Origin: a virus
Length of the DNA: 44,420 nucleotides
Strand: one strand, 5' to 3'
Virus record (IMG/VR): IMGVR_UViG_3300035670_000416
Coordinates: 1 to 44,420 of that record
In this document: positions 14,382 to 44,326 of the stretch, one piece after another
How positions within the stretch are numbered: the first letter of the stretch is position 1
How the letters are laid out: each line of letters starts with the position of its first letter
Notes under the pieces: model-generated
What the model was told of the DNA's origin: nothing
What the model saw: the letters and a program-made list of their open reading frames with translations, nothing else
The model's database searches: none
Translations under genes and position numbers: made by a program

Positions 14382-15458
14382 ATGTTAGAAGTATTCAACG
14401 TAAATAATAAAGGCTATGTCACAGGTAAATATCCATTATTCTTGGGTGAGAAGTTAGGTTTGTATGATTCTGTGAACGTAGCTTATCCTGACATTGAAGA
14501 ACTTTACCAGCAACAGTTTGGTCAACGCTGGAGTGAGTTTGAGTATGACCTCACACAAGACAAAATGGATATGCTCACTCTACCTAAAGAAACTACAGAC
14601 TTGATGGTAGAGACAATCATGTGGCAATATACAGCAGATAGTATTGCAGCTAAGTCGTTGGCTGAACTACTACTACCCTATGTCACAAACAGTGAGCTTG
14701 AAGCTATGGTGACTATCCAAAGTTTCTTTGAGATTATTCACAGTAGAACATACGCTCATATTGTTAAGCAGACAATCCCTAACGCTAAGGATTTGTTGGA
14801 GAAGACCTACGGTAATGTAGAAGTGATTAAACGCTCTAAAGTGATCGGAGAAGCTTTTGGTGCGTTGTACAGATTGAAAGAAGACAGTCCACGTAAAGAA
14901 AAGATTCGCGCATTACTTCGTGTTATGTTTGCTTTGATGGCTTTCGAAGGTGTAAGCTTCATGTCATCGTTTGCTGTGACATTCGCTATTGCTGAGACAG
15001 GTGTGTTTCAAGGTATTGCTGGTTTGGTAGGATTGATATGTTTTGATGAGCTACTTCACGCCAAGATGGACTATACTGTGCTGAAGAATTTGTTGAAAGA
15101 CCCTGAATGGTATGCTGAGTTCTTAGCTATTAAACCTGAGATTAACGCAATCATCAACGCCGTAGTTGAGCAGGAATATAAGTGGACAGAACATCTATTT
15201 AGTGAAGGTCGTAGAGTGGTTGGCTTGAGTCCTGTATTACTTCGAGAGTTTGTAATGTATATGGCAACTCCGTTGTATAAGAGCTTTGATCTCGTAGCGG
15301 AACAACCGTTTATTGAGAAGAACCCACTACCGTACATGAACAAGTATTTAAAGTCTGGTGTGATTCAAGTGGCTGCTCAAGAAGTACAGTTAAGTGATTA
15401 CAATGTGGGTAACATTGTTGATGATACAGATAATTTAGATTTGAACTTTGAGGTGTAA
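14382..15458 (+). CDS. nrdB: Class Ia ribonucleotide reductase, small (beta) subunit
   Basis: The iron ligands and radical tyrosine are in register with E. coli NrdB: D86 (WQYTAD), E117 and H120 (FFEIIH), Y124 (SRTYAH), and the second pair in CFDELLHAK. All key residues are present, so it is predicted to be an active diiron-tyrosyl radical subunit. The length of 358 residues and the acidic tail (DTDNLDLNFEV), which docks on NrdA, are normal. ATG follows TGGAGGAAAC. A homing endonuclease gene begins right behind it. Confidence 0.95.
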   Translation: MLEVFNVNNKGYVTGKYPLFLGEKLGLYDSVNVAYPDIEELYQQQFGQRWSEFEYDLTQDKMDMLTLPKETTDLMVETIMWQYTADSIAAKSLAELLLPYVTNSELEAMVTIQSFFEIIHSRTYAHIVKQTIPNAKDLLEKTYGNVEVIKRSKVIGEAFGALYRLKEDSPRKEKIRALLRVMFALMAFEGVSFMSSFAVTFAIAETGVFQGIAGLVGLICFDELLHAKMDYTVLKNLLKDPEWYAEFLAIKPEINAIINAVVEQEYKWTEHLFSEGRRVVGLSPVLLREFVMYMATPLYKSFDLVAEQPFIEKNPLPYMNKYLKSGVIQVAAQEVQLSDYNVGNIVDDTDNLDLNFEV

Positions 15459-15459
15459 C

Positions 15460-16110
15460 TTGGGAAAATTAATTGATAGAGTAGGTGAGCGCTTCGGGAA
15501 ACTTGTTGTTTTGGAGAAGGACTCGCCTCATGTATCACCGAAAGGTCGCTATACGGTAATGTGGAAGTGTCTTTGTGATTGCGGGAATACATGCACGGTA
15601 AGTGTAAATAACCTACGTAAAGGTGATACCAAGTCTTGCGGTTGTTTGAATTTGGAAAGATTGACGACACACGGAATGTCTGATACACCGACTTATACTG
15701 TCTGGGAGTCAATGAAACGAAGGTGTGATGATCCAAATCATCCGAGTTATGTGACGTATTCTAAAATTGGTTATGACCCTGCTTGGAAGCACTTTGAAAA
15801 CTTTCTTGAAGATATGGGAATAAGACCAGAAGGTTTATCTCTGGATCGTATAGACAATAACAAAGGGTATAGTAAGAGTAATTGCCGATGGGCTACTAAA
15901 ACAGTGCAGGCGCACAACAAAACGGTGGAACATTCTACAGAGTTTACAGGAGTGCATCACTATAAAGCGAACGGCAAATACCAAGCATACGTAGCTAAAG
16001 ATGGTGTTATGTACCACCTAGGTTACTTTGACACAGCAGAGTCTGCTGCTGTTGCTAGGGATGCAAAAGCTTTAGAGTTGTACGGCGCTGAAGCCTCTTT
16101 GAACTTCTGA
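15460..16110 (+). CDS. HNH/AP2 homing endonuclease
   Basis: TTG at 15460 is chosen: GAGGTG lies just upstream, inside the last nrdB codons. The N-terminal part has CLCDCG and SCGC cysteine pairs of a zinc-ribbon-like module (about 30-62). The central part is the HNH variant YTVWESMKRRCDD, YDPAWKHFENFLEDMG, LSLDRIDNNKGYSKSNCRWA. The C-terminal part is AP2 (EFTGVHHYKANGKYQAYVAK). This architecture is common in mobile genes next to phage ribonucleotide reductase genes. nrdB appears intact, so the element is free-standing. It probably uses nrdB translation for its expression. Confidence 0.88.
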   Translation: MGKLIDRVGERFGKLVVLEKDSPHVSPKGRYTVMWKCLCDCGNTCTVSVNNLRKGDTKSCGCLNLERLTTHGMSDTPTYTVWESMKRRCDDPNHPSYVTYSKIGYDPAWKHFENFLEDMGIRPEGLSLDRIDNNKGYSKSNCRWATKTVQAHNKTVEHSTEFTGVHHYKANGKYQAYVAKDGVMYHLGYFDTAESAAVARDAKALELYGAEASLNF

Positions 16111-17489: not shown

Positions 17490-18065
17490 ATGAAAAAGTT
17501 GGTTTTTGGTGCTGGAATTAACGATGCTCTATATCACACTCAAGGGGTCGTGAACGGAGTAAAGGTAACTTGCCCGTTTTACGCTAAGTGGTATGAAATG
17601 ATCAGGCGTTGTTATTCTGAAAGATACCAAGCCAAACAGCCTAGTTATATTACAGCTTCTGTATGTGACGACTGGCTACTATTTTCCAATTTCAGGGTTT
17701 GGATGGAAACTCAAGACTGGGAAGGTAAACAATTAGACAAGGATTTGCTTGTAGAGGGTAACAGAGTATATTCACCAGAAACCTGTTGTTTTATTTCTCA
17801 AAAACTTAACTGTTTCATAAAAGATACTTACCACAACCTAGAAGGGCGTTACAGAGGAGTCACTTTCCATCAGAGGATATGTAAGTACCATGCTCAGTGT
17901 AGTAACCCCTTCACCGGTAAACGTGGTAGTTGCGGATATTTCGATGATCCTTTTCTGGCACATCTGGCTTGGAAGGAGAGGAAACAACAACATGCAAGAG
18001 AATTAGCAGAGTTAGAAACTGATGAAAGGATTATCCAAGCTCTGCTAACTAAGTTCGATAATTAA
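17490..18065 (+). CDS. Homing endonuclease-like protein (degenerate HNH with AP2), antisense to neighbours
   Basis: The layout parallels the endonuclease at 15460: FYAKWYEMIRRCYSERYQ, then VCDDWLLFSNFRVWMETQDW, then LDKDLLVEGNRVYSPETCCFIS in the place of the HNH core, and a C-terminal AP2-like LEGRYRGVTFHQ segment. The canonical catalytic histidine pair is not evident, so activity may be altered or lost. It has its own promoter and runs opposite to all nearby genes. Its stop overlaps the stop of the minus-strand gene at 18062 by 4 bp, so insertion was precise and non-disruptive. ATG follows AAAGGTAATCATTT. Confidence 0.7.
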   Translation: MKKLVFGAGINDALYHTQGVVNGVKVTCPFYAKWYEMIRRCYSERYQAKQPSYITASVCDDWLLFSNFRVWMETQDWEGKQLDKDLLVEGNRVYSPETCCFISQKLNCFIKDTYHNLEGRYRGVTFHQRICKYHAQCSNPFTGKRGSCGYFDDPFLAHLAWKERKQQHARELAELETDERIIQALLTKFDN

Positions 18066-38722: not shown

Positions 38723-39799
38723 TTAAGACTTGGTAGCCTTGATGATTGTCAATGGAGACAACAGGTAATCACCGAAGTTACTTTCGTACATGATGTGAGT
38801 ACCGTTGAATTCGTTGTCTGAACGCCATGCGTATTCTGGCAGAGCTACGGTATTTACATACTGCATAGTTTCTGCTGGAGCGTAACGACGAGCGAACATA
38901 CCGTCAACGTTAGCTGGCATGATGTATGCTACATCTGGATCGATCAGAGAAGTACCACCAATCTTAGCATCGTATTGGATATAAACGATGTCATCAGCAC
39001 CAACGTACATGCGGTACTGTTGTTGGAAGTTAGCCAGACGTTTCAGCAGAGGGTCTTGACCCCACATGTCTGTACGGTCTACACGAGCTTGTTCTTCTTT
39101 CGGGTGATGGATACGTTCTTTGAAGAAGTTACGACCACACAGAGCAACATAACCAGAAACGGTTTGACCATCTAACAGGTTTTCGTTGATTAATGCACGA
39201 GCATCTTCACCAACTTCTGCTGGGTACTTAGTAGCATCAGACAGAACGAAGTTAACAGTTGGGCGAGAAGCAGCAGAAGTACCTGCGTATTCAGTATAGA
39301 AGTCATACACAGGAGCTGAACCGTTAGGAACGTATGAAGTACCGGTGGTGATCAGGTGGGCTAAAGCCTTCTCTTGTAACAGAGCGAATGAGCGGCGAAT
39401 GTCACGAATGTCATTTGCTACCAGACGGTCCATTGAGTCCAGAGTGTCTTTGGTGCCCGGCACACGGCTACGCAGAGCGTCTTGTGGACGAATGTGCGTT
39501 TGAATACCAAATGAAGGGATTTTGAACAGGTGAGTTTTTGAGGTCTCACGAGCGTCATAGTTGTCACCACGTTCTGAGTATGATTTGTCAGAAGGCAGAG
39601 TAACACGCATTACTTTAGAATCATGTTCCCAAGTAGAGGTGTTCATATACTCAACATCTAAGTTAATCAGTTGGGTTAACAGATTAGGGATGTTTGGGCT
39701 GTTCTCTAACAGAGTGCTTGAGAAGTCGTGCAGACTGTTCAAGTTACCCAGATCACGAGTTACAGATTTTTGAATTTGGAAACGACCGAATTGAGCCAT
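38723..39799 (-). CDS. Major capsid protein (gpE-like, HK97 fold)
   Basis: The 358-residue protein has the traits of the phage capsid gpE family: an N-terminal arm, the KTHLFKIPSFGIQTHIRPQD block, ANDIRDIRRSFALLQEKALA, and the C-terminal VDGMFARRYAPAETM with YAWRSDNEFNGTHIMYESNF. It is flanked by the decoration gene upstream and a strong terminator downstream, as expected for the most abundant protein. It builds the icosahedral head. Confidence 0.88.
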   Translation of the reverse strand: MAQFGRFQIQKSVTRDLGNLNSLHDFSSTLLENSPNIPNLLTQLINLDVEYMNTSTWEHDSKVMRVTLPSDKSYSERGDNYDARETSKTHLFKIPSFGIQTHIRPQDALRSRVPGTKDTLDSMDRLVANDIRDIRRSFALLQEKALAHLITTGTSYVPNGSAPVYDFYTEYAGTSAASRPTVNFVLSDATKYPAEVGEDARALINENLLDGQTVSGYVALCGRNFFKERIHHPKEEQARVDRTDMWGQDPLLKRLANFQQQYRMYVGADDIVYIQYDAKIGGTSLIDPDVAYIMPANVDGMFARRYAPAETMQYVNTVALPEYAWRSDNEFNGTHIMYESNFGDYLLSPLTIIKATKS

Positions 39800-39827: not shown

Positions 39828-39845
39828 ACGGCTATTAAACGCCGT
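39828..39845 (-). terminator. Weak terminator-like hairpin before capsid gene
   Basis: On the minus strand ACGGC and GCCGT (39845-39841, 39832-39828) pair over an 8-nt loop that contains the stop of the decoration gene, followed by TATTATTT. Possibly a partial attenuator. Confidence 0.35.
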
Positions 39846-40329
39846 AGTAAGTAGAGGTAACAGCGCCAGCAACGTTCTTAACGGCTACGCCTTGTTTTTC
39901 TAATTGTGTAGATACTGAAGCGATTTTAGCTGCGTTTAAACCGGCATCCCAACGCAGACCAGATTTCTTAACAGAAGCGGGGCCACGGAACAACAGAACT
40001 ACTTTGTCACCAGCAGTAGTAACAGATACGTCGCCTTTAACATCACCCAGAGCATCAAAGCCAACTACAACGCCGAATTTAGCGCCGTTAGCTACAGCAC
40101 CGTCTTGTGCTGGAACGTTGATGGCATCGCCAGTGAAATCGCCAGCAACGATTTGACGATAAGCAGCTAGTGAGTTATCCCACATGACCACTTGACCAAC
40201 GCGGTAGGTTTTGGTAGAAGCTTCATCAACAGTGACGTTGTGTTGGTAGTTAAAGTTTTCTACAACAGGGAAGTTGTCCTGCATCAGAACATCTGACAGA
40301 ACTGGACTAGAAGTTGCAATAACAGTCAT
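39835..40329 (-). CDS. Head decoration/stabilisation protein
   Basis: The 164-residue beta-rich protein has DFTGDAINVPAQDGAVANGA and KVVLLFRGPASVKKSGLRWD, similar to the small head decoration proteins that stabilise capsids (lambda gpD or DUF2190-like). It lies between scaffold and capsid genes, the usual place. ATG follows AAGGATAAACAATA. Confidence 0.65.
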   Translation of the reverse strand: MTVIATSSPVLSDVLMQDNFPVVENFNYQHNVTVDEASTKTYRVGQVVMWDNSLAAYRQIVAGDFTGDAINVPAQDGAVANGAKFGVVVGFDALGDVKGDVSVTTAGDKVVLLFRGPASVKKSGLRWDAGLNAAKIASVSTQLEKQGVAVKNVAGAVTSTYYGV

Positions 40330-40348: not shown

Positions 40349-41299
40349 TTAGTAAGGTTTGTTTAATTCTGCTGCGAATGCAGCTTTCTTGATTTGTTCT
40401 GGAGATACTTCATCGCCAGTGGTGGTTTCTTGGAACAGGTCAGATTTTTCTACCAGTTCTTTTTTAGCTTGCAGAGATTTAATCACTACTTCGGCAGCTT
40501 CTGGGCTAGTGGCTTTCATTACGAATAATGATTTAGCAACAGCAGTCAGTTCTTCAGCAGATACTAAGTCTTTCAGAGTTTCTTGGAATGCTTCAAATTC
40601 AGCAGCTTCTTTTTCTTCTTTAGCTTTCTGTACTTGAGTACGCAGTTCAGCAACTTCCGCTTCCAGAGCAGATTTCTCAACTTTGAGTTGAGTAGCTTCT
40701 GCTACGGCAGCTTCGTGAGCTTGCTCGACTTGTTCTAATTGCTCGTAGCGAGCTTTTTCTACTTGGATTTTCAAGGGGTCTTCCTCGTTTTGTTGTTGTA
40801 AAGATTTCTCGATTTGAGACTGGATAGTAGTGATAGCAATAAAATCTTCATCACTGATTGTTTGGTTTGGGTTCTCGTTAAGAGATTTCATAATGGTGAA
40901 CTGAGCTACACGCTCTGTGATCCACTTCTCGTGTTCTTTCTCCCAATCGTACTCACCATCAGAAGATTCACGTTCAGCCTTGGCTGCTTCAAACTCTGTT
41001 TCAAAACCTAATAGCTTTGTAAGGGTTTCTGCATCAGAACTCCACATATCAAAGAACTTACGTAAGAATTCTTCCATTGACATTGTTACAGTAATCTGTT
41101 CTAATGCTTTCTGTACTTTCACTACGTTAGTTGGTTGGATGCCAATGTTGGTTTGCTTAATCGCTTGTTTGAGAACTAAGACTTTAGACTGATTTGCACC
41201 AGAACCTACTTCAGGGCCGACCAGACTCACGTTACTCGTCGGAGAGGTGAAGGATAAGTTCCTCAATAGTCGGGTCGCCTTCTTTTTTGTTTTGTTCAT
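40349..41299 (-). CDS. Scaffold part of a split protease-scaffold gene
   Basis: Residues about 8-45 (ATRLLRNLSFTSP, SNVSLVGPEVGSGANQSKVL) look like the end of an XkdF-type prohead protease domain: the final strand SLV..P and a GAN loop. The rest is a long acidic coiled coil (about 170-245) and C-terminal helices typical of capsid scaffolds. The gene therefore appears to begin in the middle of a protease domain. Its ATG overlaps the GIY-YIG gene by 68 bp and has only a weak site (GGAT). In related phages, protease and scaffold form one gene or adjacent ones, which should be checked. Confidence 0.7.
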   Translation of the reverse strand: MNKTKKKATRLLRNLSFTSPTSNVSLVGPEVGSGANQSKVLVLKQAIKQTNIGIQPTNVVKVQKALEQITVTMSMEEFLRKFFDMWSSDAETLTKLLGFETEFEAAKAERESSDGEYDWEKEHEKWITERVAQFTIMKSLNENPNQTISDEDFIAITTIQSQIEKSLQQQNEEDPLKIQVEKARYEQLEQVEQAHEAAVAEATQLKVEKSALEAEVAELRTQVQKAKEEKEAAEFEAFQETLKDLVSAEELTAVAKSLFVMKATSPEAAEVVIKSLQAKKELVEKSDLFQETTTGDEVSPEQIKKAAFAAELNKPY

Positions 41300-42092
41300 A
41301 ATAGTTTATCCATCTTTCGTCTTTGAGTGGTTCCCACCCAGAAGTAAATTTACTCACAACGTTAGCTATTGACGCAGGTTTTTCACCAATTATTTCTGAG
41401 ATTAGCGTTTTAGACAGCGCCACTTTAGCTCTTAATATAAATATTCTTCCAGCGTTCAACCAAAGATTATGATTAGTTTGAGAATTAGCCCACCACCCGT
41501 GTTTTTCAAAGAATCTCTTGTGACTTTCAGCAGCAAGTAACACAGACTCCTTTTTCGGTTTTGGCCATTGCCAACCACTTTCAAATTTGCGCTTAAGTGT
41601 GGCTTGTCTTTTGGCTACAACTTCTTCTATTGGGACAGGCCCAGATAGCTTTCTCAGGTAAGAAGTACAACCACCTTTCCAGTTATGATGGTCTGGGCCA
41701 CGTCGATTTAAACCAAGACGTTCTCTTGTTTCAGCGGCTTTCTTTGCATAAACCAGTCTGAGTTCTTTAGGGATGTCGGCAGGTAAAGCACCGCCTCTAC
41801 GCATATTCCAACCAATGAAGTCTTCAGGTCTCAACTGTAGTTCAGTCCACTTAGCATGTTCTCTAGAGGTTACGCAGATAGTGTCTACAACTAGATTCTC
41901 TGCACCATACTTGTTTATGGCTTGATGGATTAGGAAAGTAGGTTGTTTTCTAGCTTTACGACAATGGTCTGAGAATCTTTTACTAACGGGCTTGGTGGTT
42001 ATTCCAACATAACCTTGCGTTTTAATGTCTGTATGTTCAGCTAAATGAATCCAGTACACGTATGTAGGTTTTTCATTCAATGACATAACCAT
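41232..42092 (-). CDS. GIY-YIG homing endonuclease
   Basis: The N-terminal part has the GIY-YIG nuclease motifs: VYWIHL (about 12-17), GYVGIT (27-32), KRFSDH with the catalytic Arg (38-43), and TELQLR with the catalytic Glu region. NUMOD3-like and C-terminal helix-turn-helix segments follow (SKTLISEIIGEKPASIANVV, TSGWEPL). It starts inside the last protease codons (20-bp overlap) and ends 68 bp inside the scaffold frame, so there is no room for an intron core around it. It is inserted between the two halves of a capsid maturation gene. ATGs at 42092 or 42086 are possible starts. Confidence 0.88.
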   Translation of the reverse strand: MVMSLNEKPTYVYWIHLAEHTDIKTQGYVGITTKPVSKRFSDHCRKARKQPTFLIHQAINKYGAENLVVDTICVTSREHAKWTELQLRPEDFIGWNMRRGGALPADIPKELRLVYAKKAAETRERLGLNRRGPDHHNWKGGCTSYLRKLSGPVPIEEVVAKRQATLKRKFESGWQWPKPKKESVLLAAESHKRFFEKHGWWANSQTNHNLWLNAGRIFILRAKVALSKTLISEIIGEKPASIANVVSKFTSGWEPLKDERWINYYEQNKKEGDPTIEELILHLSDE

Positions 42093-42549
42093 CTGCCATA
42101 CAATCTATACTGACTGAATCGTAAGTGCCGTCTAGTAACTTACCCCAAAGGTCATCACTCTTAAACTGAAGCCACATAAGCCAGCTACCTTTCTTCACGA
42201 AATCGCCGTATTCTGTAGTGAAATCGCAAGGGGCAATATAAGACTCTTGGACTTCCACTTCATCTTCAGATGCTACATCTTTGTGAAGAATACCGACTTG
42301 TTCACAATGCTTATTGTAATCATGACAAGCTTTTCGGATAGTTTCTTCGTCGTACCAATCACCATGTAAGTCAGCAGTCATGCCGTCTTCATCTTGAGGC
42401 TCAAGAACAACAAATAATGCACGTTTTTGCATTTGGTCTACAGACTTAACCACAGCTACTTCAGCTTCTGGTTTGTTTGGTTGTTCTGATTCACCGATAC
42501 ATGAATCTAGAAACTGTACAAGTTTCTCTAATAGTTTTTCTTTGTTCAT
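42073..42549 (-). CDS. Prohead protease N-terminal part (XkdF-like)
   Basis: The 158-residue protein has the XkdF-type protease elements: KRALFVVLEPQDEDGMTADL, VGILHK with catalytic His89, VQESYIAPCDF, FVKKGSWLMWLQF and LLDGTYDSVSIDCMADG with the likely catalytic Ser147. The usual downstream strand SLV..P and the scaffold region are missing here and appear instead in the gene at 40349. The piece ends at a stop created next to the GIY-YIG gene. It follows the portal gene with TAGATG. It would mature the capsid by cleaving the scaffold. Confidence 0.72.
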   Translation of the reverse strand: MNKEKLLEKLVQFLDSCIGESEQPNKPEAEVAVVKSVDQMQKRALFVVLEPQDEDGMTADLHGDWYDEETIRKACHDYNKHCEQVGILHKDVASEDEVEVQESYIAPCDFTTEYGDFVKKGSWLMWLQFKSDDLWGKLLDGTYDSVSIDCMADGYVIE

Positions 42550-43305
42550 CTACGCAGCATTCTCACTATTTGTCGCACTGTTGTTCTTACCAGCAGCACC
42601 AACGCCGTTGTTCATGCCTTCTGCCATTCCGTCACCACTACGGGTAGTCATGTCACTAAGCTTCGCAATGATTTCATCTTCGCTAAGTTTCTCAACTTCG
42701 GTAGTATCGTAACCACACTTACGCCACAGTTGGACAAGCATAGCTTTGTCTCGTGGGAATAATCCTGTAGCACCTAAGCGTTGACCAGCTTTGGAAGCTT
42801 CTTCAGCGTCGGCTTCATCCAGTTCACCAAACGTCATCACTGGCATATCATCTTCTTCAAGCTTCAGCTCATTAATGTCTGCAAGAGACTTAACAAACTC
42901 ACGCTCAAATACTGTTTTGATATACATCAGCATACGTTCCATGTAGAAAGCATGGACACTGCGACTACTATCTGATAGGCTATGTGAACCTGTGTCACCC
43001 TGACCAACCAGAAGGAAGGAAGCGCCTAGTACATTAAGAATATCTTTCTTACGAGCTTCAATCAGTTCAGATGTTTTATAGGCTTTACTACCACCATCGA
43101 CACCCTTCAGTTCAACATCGTAAACGTATTTACCGTTACCTGTTTCACCGTGTGTGTCTGAACCTAAGAGGATATATGTTTGATCGCCAGCATGAATAGC
43201 GGCGGCATTCTTTTGTAATGCTTTTAATGTGGCGGCTTCTAGACTATCAGGATCTTCAGCAGCTTTGTTGATGTGATCATTCGGAACACGTAATACAAGG
43301 ACACC
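42550..43305 (-). CDS. Portal protein, exon 2 (DUF935-like)
   Basis: After splicing at 43305 the reading frame continues from exon 1 as GVSKDLG then GVLVLRVPNDHINKA, the expected DUF935/Mu gp29-like portal sequence. Exon 2 contributes 251 residues including the DILNVLGASFLLVGQGDTGS and YMERMLMYIKTVFEREFVKS regions and an Asn/Gly-rich tail. An ATG at 43308 would allow separate translation but has no good ribosome site. The full portal is 506 residues, normal for the family. It is the 12-fold entrance of the capsid. Confidence 0.8.
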   Translation of the reverse strand, partial: GVLVLRVPNDHINKAAEDPDSLEAATLKALQKNAAAIHAGDQTYILLGSDTHGETGNGKYVYDVELKGVDGGSKAYKTSELIEARKKDILNVLGASFLLVGQGDTGSHSLSDSSRSVHAFYMERMLMYIKTVFEREFVKSLADINELKLEEDDMPVMTFGELDEADAEEASKAGQRLGATGLFPRDKAMLVQLWRKCGYDTTEVEKLSEDEIIAKLSDMTTRSGDGMAEGMNNGVGAAGKNNSATNSENAA

Positions 43306-43561
43306 CATTTGTTCAAAGTGAGTCGTTAGTTCACTCCAGCGACATTATTCGCTTCTCTATGTTTCCATAAAGTTCAGACTATATCTTCATCCTCTAAGGA
43401 TGCTTTCCATTTCGAGCTACTTAGCCCTACGCTTTTCAGCTAGTCGTTACACGTTCTCATTACTGAGCTTCGCTCGGTATTGTCTCCAACATTACTTGGT
43501 AAGAGTTTCACCGAATTAGAAAAGTTATTCAATGCGTATTACTACACAAGGGGGCAGTTCT
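43306..43561 (-). ncRNA. Group I intron without ORF, in the portal gene
   Basis: The minus strand holds typical group IA-like core blocks in order: GGTGAAACTCTTACC, then CCAAGTAATGTTGGAGAC, then AACGACTAGC and finally AAGATATAGTCTG. GACTA (43441-43445) and TAGTC (43377-43381) form P7; CATCC and GGATG form P8. The 5' exon ends GGGT, pairing with GCCC in the intron (P1, with the usual U-G at the splice site). The intron ends in G, followed by exon GGT, which pairs with ACU (short P10). The length of 256 nt is normal for an ORF-less intron. Confidence 0.88.
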
Positions 43562-44326
43562 ACCCAAGTCCTTACTAACACCAACAACCTCATAGCTTGT
43601 AATCATTTCAAGCTCTTTCCAAGATTTATAACAATCGTATAAATCTGATTTACCTTGAGGATTATTACCTGTACTATTCCAACTGAACAACATAAACTTT
43701 TCTCTAGGAACTTTTTTATCTGTTAAGTTTTGTACAGTGAAAGGGTTGATATTACTTTGTCCGATTATTGTTGCTGGCATCCATTGATACAAGCCATACA
43801 ATTCACGTTTCAATATTGGATCATCAAACCACCACTCACGAACACTCTTTTGTGAACGTGGGGCTAGTTTTTTATATTTATATTTGTATTTACCAGACCA
43901 CTTAATACTATCATTCTTTGCGAAGACTTTCTCAAGCCAAGCAAATCCGTATTTACGGAATGTGATAATATTTGTGATGGCATCATACCAACTATTACCG
44001 ACGAAGTTTTTGATGTTCCAGTTGAGGAAGGCAGCGAAGTCTTTTGACTCTTGACTTCCTGATACACCTGCGATAAACTTTGTGGCAAGTAATGATTTAG
44101 TAAGGAATACTTCACCAGCAGTTAATCCTTGACTAACAGCAGAGGTAGAAGCCATCTTATCGTATGTGACTAAACTATGAGGGAACTGCAACTCTTTCTT
44201 TGCAGATTCCTCAATGTAACCGCCGATGGCTTTTAGATATGGATTGCCGATCTCCCCTAAGCGCAGTCTTGTATCTGAGCTTGAGGGATTAGATTCAGCT
44301 TTCTCAATTTGAATTGTTTCTGACAT
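43562..44326 (-). CDS. Portal protein, exon 1 (DUF935-like)
   Basis: The unspliced frame runs on to a stop at 43529 giving 265 residues, but the last ten (RTAPLCSNTH) are intron. Exon 1 codes 255 residues with DUF935 features: NPYLKAIGGYIEESAKKELQ, FAAFLNWNIKNFVGNSWYDA, WLEKVFAKND, and DLYDCYKSWKELEMITSYEV before GVSKDLG. ATG follows GAGGGGATA. It is located before the protease gene, as in most head modules. Confidence 0.82.

Follow-up and report, generated by a model that had tools for sequence, protein, structure and literature searches.

An S78_2 phage protease with a probable terminal segment encoded by the scaffold gene and a homing endonuclease in the old gene joint

The window, meaning the whole 44.4-kb virus record analyzed here, carries a variant of the phage capsid protease in which the scaffold gene seems to code for the terminal segment of an S78_2 protease, and a homing endonuclease gene occupies the joint of the two genes. 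The two-gene protease is best explained by old descent, with the N-terminal strand of the scaffold most likely packing on the protease core, tethering the protease and maybe completing its fold (probability about 0.7). The endonuclease did not create the split between protease and scaffold; it invaded an old joint. The cassette of protease, endonuclease, and scaffold N-terminus is foreign and lies in an otherwise resident head module. The features concerned are as follows.

42550-44326, minus strand: portal gene with a 256-nt group I intron at 43306-43561 (Rfam 85.5 bits and the exon junction)
42073-42549, minus strand: protease core gene, Peptidase_S78_2, 158 aa (open reading frame, Pfam 2.7e-20, and alignment of 21 relatives)
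41232-42092, minus strand: free-standing putative GIY-YIG homing endonuclease gene, 286 aa (open reading frame and PHROG homing endonuclease match, 2.4e-14)
40349-41299, minus strand: scaffold gene, 316 aa, chimeric, with codons 1 to ~50 foreign and the rest resident (open reading frame, phrog_4103, and identities)
41156-41299, minus strand: scaffold codons 1-48, the protease-associated segment (ATRLLRNLSF...SNVSLVGPEVGSGANQSKVLVLK; alignment, HMMs, and hhalign to the XkdF N-terminus, E 2e-4)
41144-42549: foreign cassette of ~1.4 kb (blastn blocks, border alignments, identity matrix, and tree)
39835-40329, minus strand: head decoration protein, lambda gpD-like (weak Pfam HDPD match of 7.3e-4, below cut-off)
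38723-39799, minus strand: major capsid protein (Phage_cap_E), the likely substrate shell (Pfam 8.1e-26)

The 158-residue protease ends with SVSIDCMADGYVIE directly before its stop codon, and the 316-residue scaffold begins with MNKTKKKATRLLRNLSF...SNVSLVGPEVGSGANQ. The endonuclease gene between them overlaps the protease gene by exactly 20 bp and the scaffold gene by exactly 68 bp. An earlier note on this DNA, made from the sequence, gave this three-gene order and these overlaps, and the reading frame coordinates agree with it exactly. Its statement that no intron separates the halves also stands, as Rfam finds none between the protease and scaffold genes and detects just one in the window, in the portal gene. 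The presence of the endonuclease removes the direct overlap of protease and scaffold, so that translation of the scaffold now starts inside the endonuclease gene. On its downstream side, the scaffold gene is adjoined by the head decoration gene.

The protease matches the Pfam model Peptidase_S78_2 (PF14550) with an E-value of 2.7e-20 and 73.1 bits (cut-off 24), covering profile positions 2-124 of 126. Asp60, His89, and Ser147 are invariant in an alignment of 21 protease sequences and are the putative catalytic residues. Because all three reside in the 158-residue piece, the scaffold probably contributes structure or docking rather than chemistry. Whether that piece is a complete domain, which the earlier note had doubted, has a divided answer: the Pfam model and the invariant residues fall inside it, but the model omits the segment now found in the scaffold, and does so even in single-chain members of the family. 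The position before the VSLV motif was weighed as a possible third catalytic residue contributed by the scaffold. It varies among relatives (N, H, F, T, Y, or I), and a catalytic role for it is unlikely.

Two observations concern the protease gene in other phages. The split gene (L003 2983-3453, and many public records) is widely annotated as 'DNA methyltransferase', apparently an error copied from record to record; in Pakpunavirus, Nankokuvirus, CR3, and ICP1 the protease and scaffold are often labeled 'DNA methyltransferase' and 'hypothetical protein'. The proteases of ICP1 (L025 2959-3795) and 2L372X (L029 2455-3378) have in common an extra domain, DKGNLVYRG.KF.GYNKP...KGKGxKEF, that follows the core in ICP1 and precedes it in 2L372X, and is thus another part that has switched sides.

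The first ~48 residues of the scaffold (phrog_4103, 1.6e-23) carry a segment conserved in the alignment as KAKRxLxxxxF...HVALVxKxQGxAANGxxxLITKS. In an HMM scan, split loci present the core and then the segment at the opening of the next gene, and XkdF loci present the segment and then the core within one reading frame; the training set of this segment HMM included three XkdF rows, and retrieval of the XkdF loci had relied in part on the same segment. A segment HMM made from split phages only gives weak matches among 1,091 reading frames of XkdF loci (best full-sequence E 0.04), all of them on the XkdF N-terminus bar one negligible second match in L074. Profile-profile alignment with hhalign pairs the core with XkdF at E 3.5e-28 and the segment at E 2e-4, in swapped order. 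The similarity of the segment to the XkdF N-terminus, at 0.04 and 2e-4, is modest. In psiM2 ORF12, the core, the segment, and the scaffold form one chain in the order of the split genes, and the psiM2 core is the sister of the split loci L079/L080 in the core tree (100/98). The scaffold start had been read in the earlier note as the continuation of an XkdF-type protease. The segment is there, but in true XkdF it comes before the core and not after it, and the XkdF architecture (a single chain with a VSxVDKAAN segment on the N-terminal side of the core) is not that of the window. The view that the scaffold start behaves as part of the protease module is upheld by the segment in single-chain relatives, by co-variation, and by joint exchange with the protease.

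Among 20 loci, segment distances correlate with those of the protease core (r 0.80) and with those of the rest of the scaffold (r 0.46), while the partial correlation is 0.74 with the core (p 0.0002) and -0.13 with the rest of the scaffold (p 0.91); the rows are related and not independent, so this statistic rests largely on a few discrete exchange events. As judged from these distances, the segment evolves with the protease and not with the remainder of its own gene. On at least two occasions core and segment were exchanged together, and each time the right border fell near scaffold codon 50, at the end of the segment instead of a gene boundary. The first exchange is seen between L013/L014 and L016/L018. 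L013 and L018 are 98-100% identical at the portal end and over most of the initial ~90 nt of the protease gene. Identity then drops to ~45-65% along most of the stretch that ends at scaffold nt ~140, in which 310-370 is better conserved, and beyond it is again 96-100%. L013 and L014 have 99% identity in the protease, 100% in the segment, and 71% in the rest of the scaffold.

The window is itself chimeric. Its flanks are 90-97% identical to L006-L012, and about 41144-42549 is foreign, with the left border of the cassette placed only to within about 50 bp. The protease is 59% identical to L013/L014 and 40% to the near relatives, and the segment is 70% and 33-40% identical, respectively. The protease tree likewise groups the window with L013/L014 (99/98). 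Recombination with an L013/L014-like phage swapped the resident protease and its matching scaffold N-terminus as one unit.

In more than 25 other loci, protease and scaffold are likewise encoded by two neighboring genes, and no endonuclease separates them. The nearest are L006-L012 from IMG/VR, with capsid proteins 93-99% identical to those of the window and nothing between the two genes, which overlap as ATGA or abut as TAA-ATG, as they do in L022. The same endonuclease-free arrangement is found in L013-L021, L023, L024, Alteromonas phage PT11-V22, PAK_P1, Amme-3, Kremar, P3_CHA, CR3, 2L372X, ICP1, 11895-B1, JP1, RHph_Y1_11, Vibrio phages 1.121 and 1.215, and the halovirus-like L079/L080. The two genes lie in different reading frames in most of these loci, and in all other split loci examined the endonuclease is absent from the joint. 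Relatives without the endonuclease, near and far, thus carry the two genes with matching ends, which is the first of the observations that the earlier note had named as refuting its reading. Given that both near and distant relatives are split without it, the endonuclease is not the cause of the split.

The GIY-YIG protein matches homing-endonuclease PHROGs at 2.4e-14 and the GIY-YIG family phrog_5123 at 4e-5, and reaches 20.0 bits with Pfam GIY-YIG, under the cut-off of 22.6. Its arrival in the joint probably took place in an L013-like phage. The likely vehicle that brought the cassette into the window would be homing with co-conversion of the flanks, a process documented in T-even phages (PMC2988022). 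Searches of IMG/VR returned no further copies of the protease or endonuclease of the window. The best full-length match to the endonuclease is the enzyme of vB_PsaM_M1 (L081 3992-4690), which precedes an unrelated S49-type protease.

Other mobile elements are found nearby. The portal exons join to 506 aa, as in the intronless L007, and the intron between them (43306-43561, minus strand) holds no reading frame. Since the GIY-YIG gene is about 1.2 kb from this intron, collaborative homing of the two is possible. The portal intron is present in L006, L008, and L012 and absent in L007, L011, and L022, and L020 has an HNH reading frame inside an intron at the same portal site. More group I introns are located upstream of the portal in L011 (556-788), L012 (273-521), and L013 (578-863), those of L011 and L013 being between reading frames that resemble terminase pieces. 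Free-standing endonuclease genes occur between portal and protease in L007 (2574-3476), L014 (1621-2349), L029 (1298-2290), and L081 (3992-4690). Elsewhere in the window, the translations of reading frames 1-573, 1298-1777, 15448-16110, and 17490-18065 resemble, by eye, HNH or similar homing endonucleases; of these, 15448-16110 overlaps the 3' end of a frame that resembles, also by eye, the small subunit of ribonucleotide reductase.

AlphaFold2 models the single-chain XkdF of L062 with a pTM of 0.81. The segment forms a strand at residues 7-22 with a pLDDT of about 87 in the central block, and the AANKK tail is weak. In L019, protease and scaffold are in frame across a single TAA, which was read as Gln so that the pieces are covalently joined in the model; this read-through has a pTM of 0.73, with the segment strands in blocks of pLDDT 79-87 and the GAN tail below 60. 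The GAN half of the segment is of low confidence in both models. In these covalently joined models the segment is predicted to form a strand with moderate to good confidence, and this strand may pair with the protease. Foldseek against BFVD retrieves the ICP1 protease, XkdF, and prohead proteases. Against the PDB, Foldseek of the XkdF model gave nothing significant, and a sequence search of solved structures gave nothing useful.

In this phage group, the head-maturation protease would be shared between two adjacent genes. The first encodes the S78_2 core, including the putative active site, and the first ~48 codons of the second, the scaffold gene, encode the segment that single-chain relatives keep in the same protein. 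The N-terminal strand of the scaffold most likely packs onto the protease core; this would anchor the protease to the scaffold within the procapsid and might also complete the protease fold. Such a non-covalent link would do the job of the protease-scaffold fusions present elsewhere. The homing endonuclease of the window sits in the joint of this exchanged unit of core and segment. Expression experiments with the ICP1 scaffold yielded assembled particles (PMC10945586), so its protease partner may be dispensable for the scaffold itself.

The origin of the arrangement could be read in two other ways. The earlier note proposed that the GIY-YIG gene was inserted into a single protease-scaffold gene and divided it, with the splitting of Aeh1 nrdA by mobE as the precedent. 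The endonuclease is located exactly in the joint, and endonuclease-made splits are documented (PMC2988022), but relatives free of the endonuclease, both near and distant, already have two genes, often in different frames. Such an insertion survives only if all of these relatives lost an endonuclease without trace, and it can practically be discarded. That the cassette is a metagenome misassembly joining two phages is very improbable. A single contig with this cassette was found, which would suit an artifact; yet the right border lies inside the scaffold gene with the 316-codon frame kept, all genes are intact and abutting, and an equivalent exchange is seen in the independent contigs L013, L014, L016, and L018.

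The function of the segment also has two competing accounts, as co-exchange with the core would equally fit a docking or a cleavage site. The scaffold N-terminus could be a docking tag that binds the outside of an already complete protease to recruit it and takes no part in the fold. The Pfam S78_2 model and the invariant Asp, His, and Ser lie wholly in the 158-residue piece, and co-variation fits such a tag just as well. However, psiM2 and XkdF keep the segment in one chain, where recruiting a separate chain is needless, and the segment is predicted as a strand, making a tag rather unlikely. Still less likely is a cleavage site that co-evolves with protease specificity. Prohead proteases do cut scaffolds, and the psiM2 segment has protease on one side and scaffold on the other, the expected place of a release site; in XkdF, however, it precedes the core, where a cut frees just a short tail, and a conserved segment of ~35 residues is long for such a site. 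Packing of the scaffold strand on the core is the preferred reading, and we infer that the scaffold may complete the protease in trans. The wider proposal is that in many bacterial and archaeal tailed phages the N-terminal scaffold strand completes the protease in trans and so brings it into the procapsid, with full activity only when scaffold-bound, in a mobile two-gene module sometimes borne by an endonuclease; the odds for this are about even.

To our knowledge, the means by which the protease enters the procapsid and is kept quiet beforehand are not settled for most tailed phages that lack a protease-scaffold fusion. A strand supplied by the scaffold, if true, would explain both the delivery of the protease and its prior quiescence, in Pakpunavirus, which is studied for phage therapy, and in ICP1. 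The window also shows clearly how a homing endonuclease has settled in a long-standing joint of two genes and moves along with a functional module that spans a gene boundary. No paper describing the split of protease and scaffold was found in open-access text.

Several known systems resemble parts of this arrangement. The XkdF proteases (Lactococcus phage 56701) and psiM2 ORF12 have a homologous core (hhalign 3.5e-28) with matching invariant Asp, His, and Ser, and have the short VSLVDxxAN...K segment in common with the window. They differ in its placement: both are single chains, with the segment ahead of the core in XkdF and behind it in psiM2, and in the window the segment opens the next gene. 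HK97 gp4 (Peptidase_S78) has a core (EGMSVGF) followed by RIFKNIQALREISVCTFPANEQAGIAAMKS, by eye in the order of gene 1 and then gene 2, and is a single chain, unlike the window; the similarity of its profile to the segment is not significant, the HK97 profile being too narrow (Neff 1.2) for the comparison to have power. Pakpunavirus, Nankokuvirus, Vequintavirinae (CR3), and ICP1 have the same two-gene arrangement and scaffold N-terminal segment as the window, but with no endonuclease in the joint. Split genes associated with endonucleases are known from Aeh1 nrdA/mobE, T4 gene 60/mobA, and phage 25 gene 43/seg, where, as in the window, a free-standing homing endonuclease lies between two pieces that must cooperate (PMC2988022). 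For gene 43 of phage 25, too, the endonuclease may have invaded a gene that was already split (PMC2988022). In the window the split is demonstrably older than the endonuclease, and it affects a structural protease together with its scaffold.
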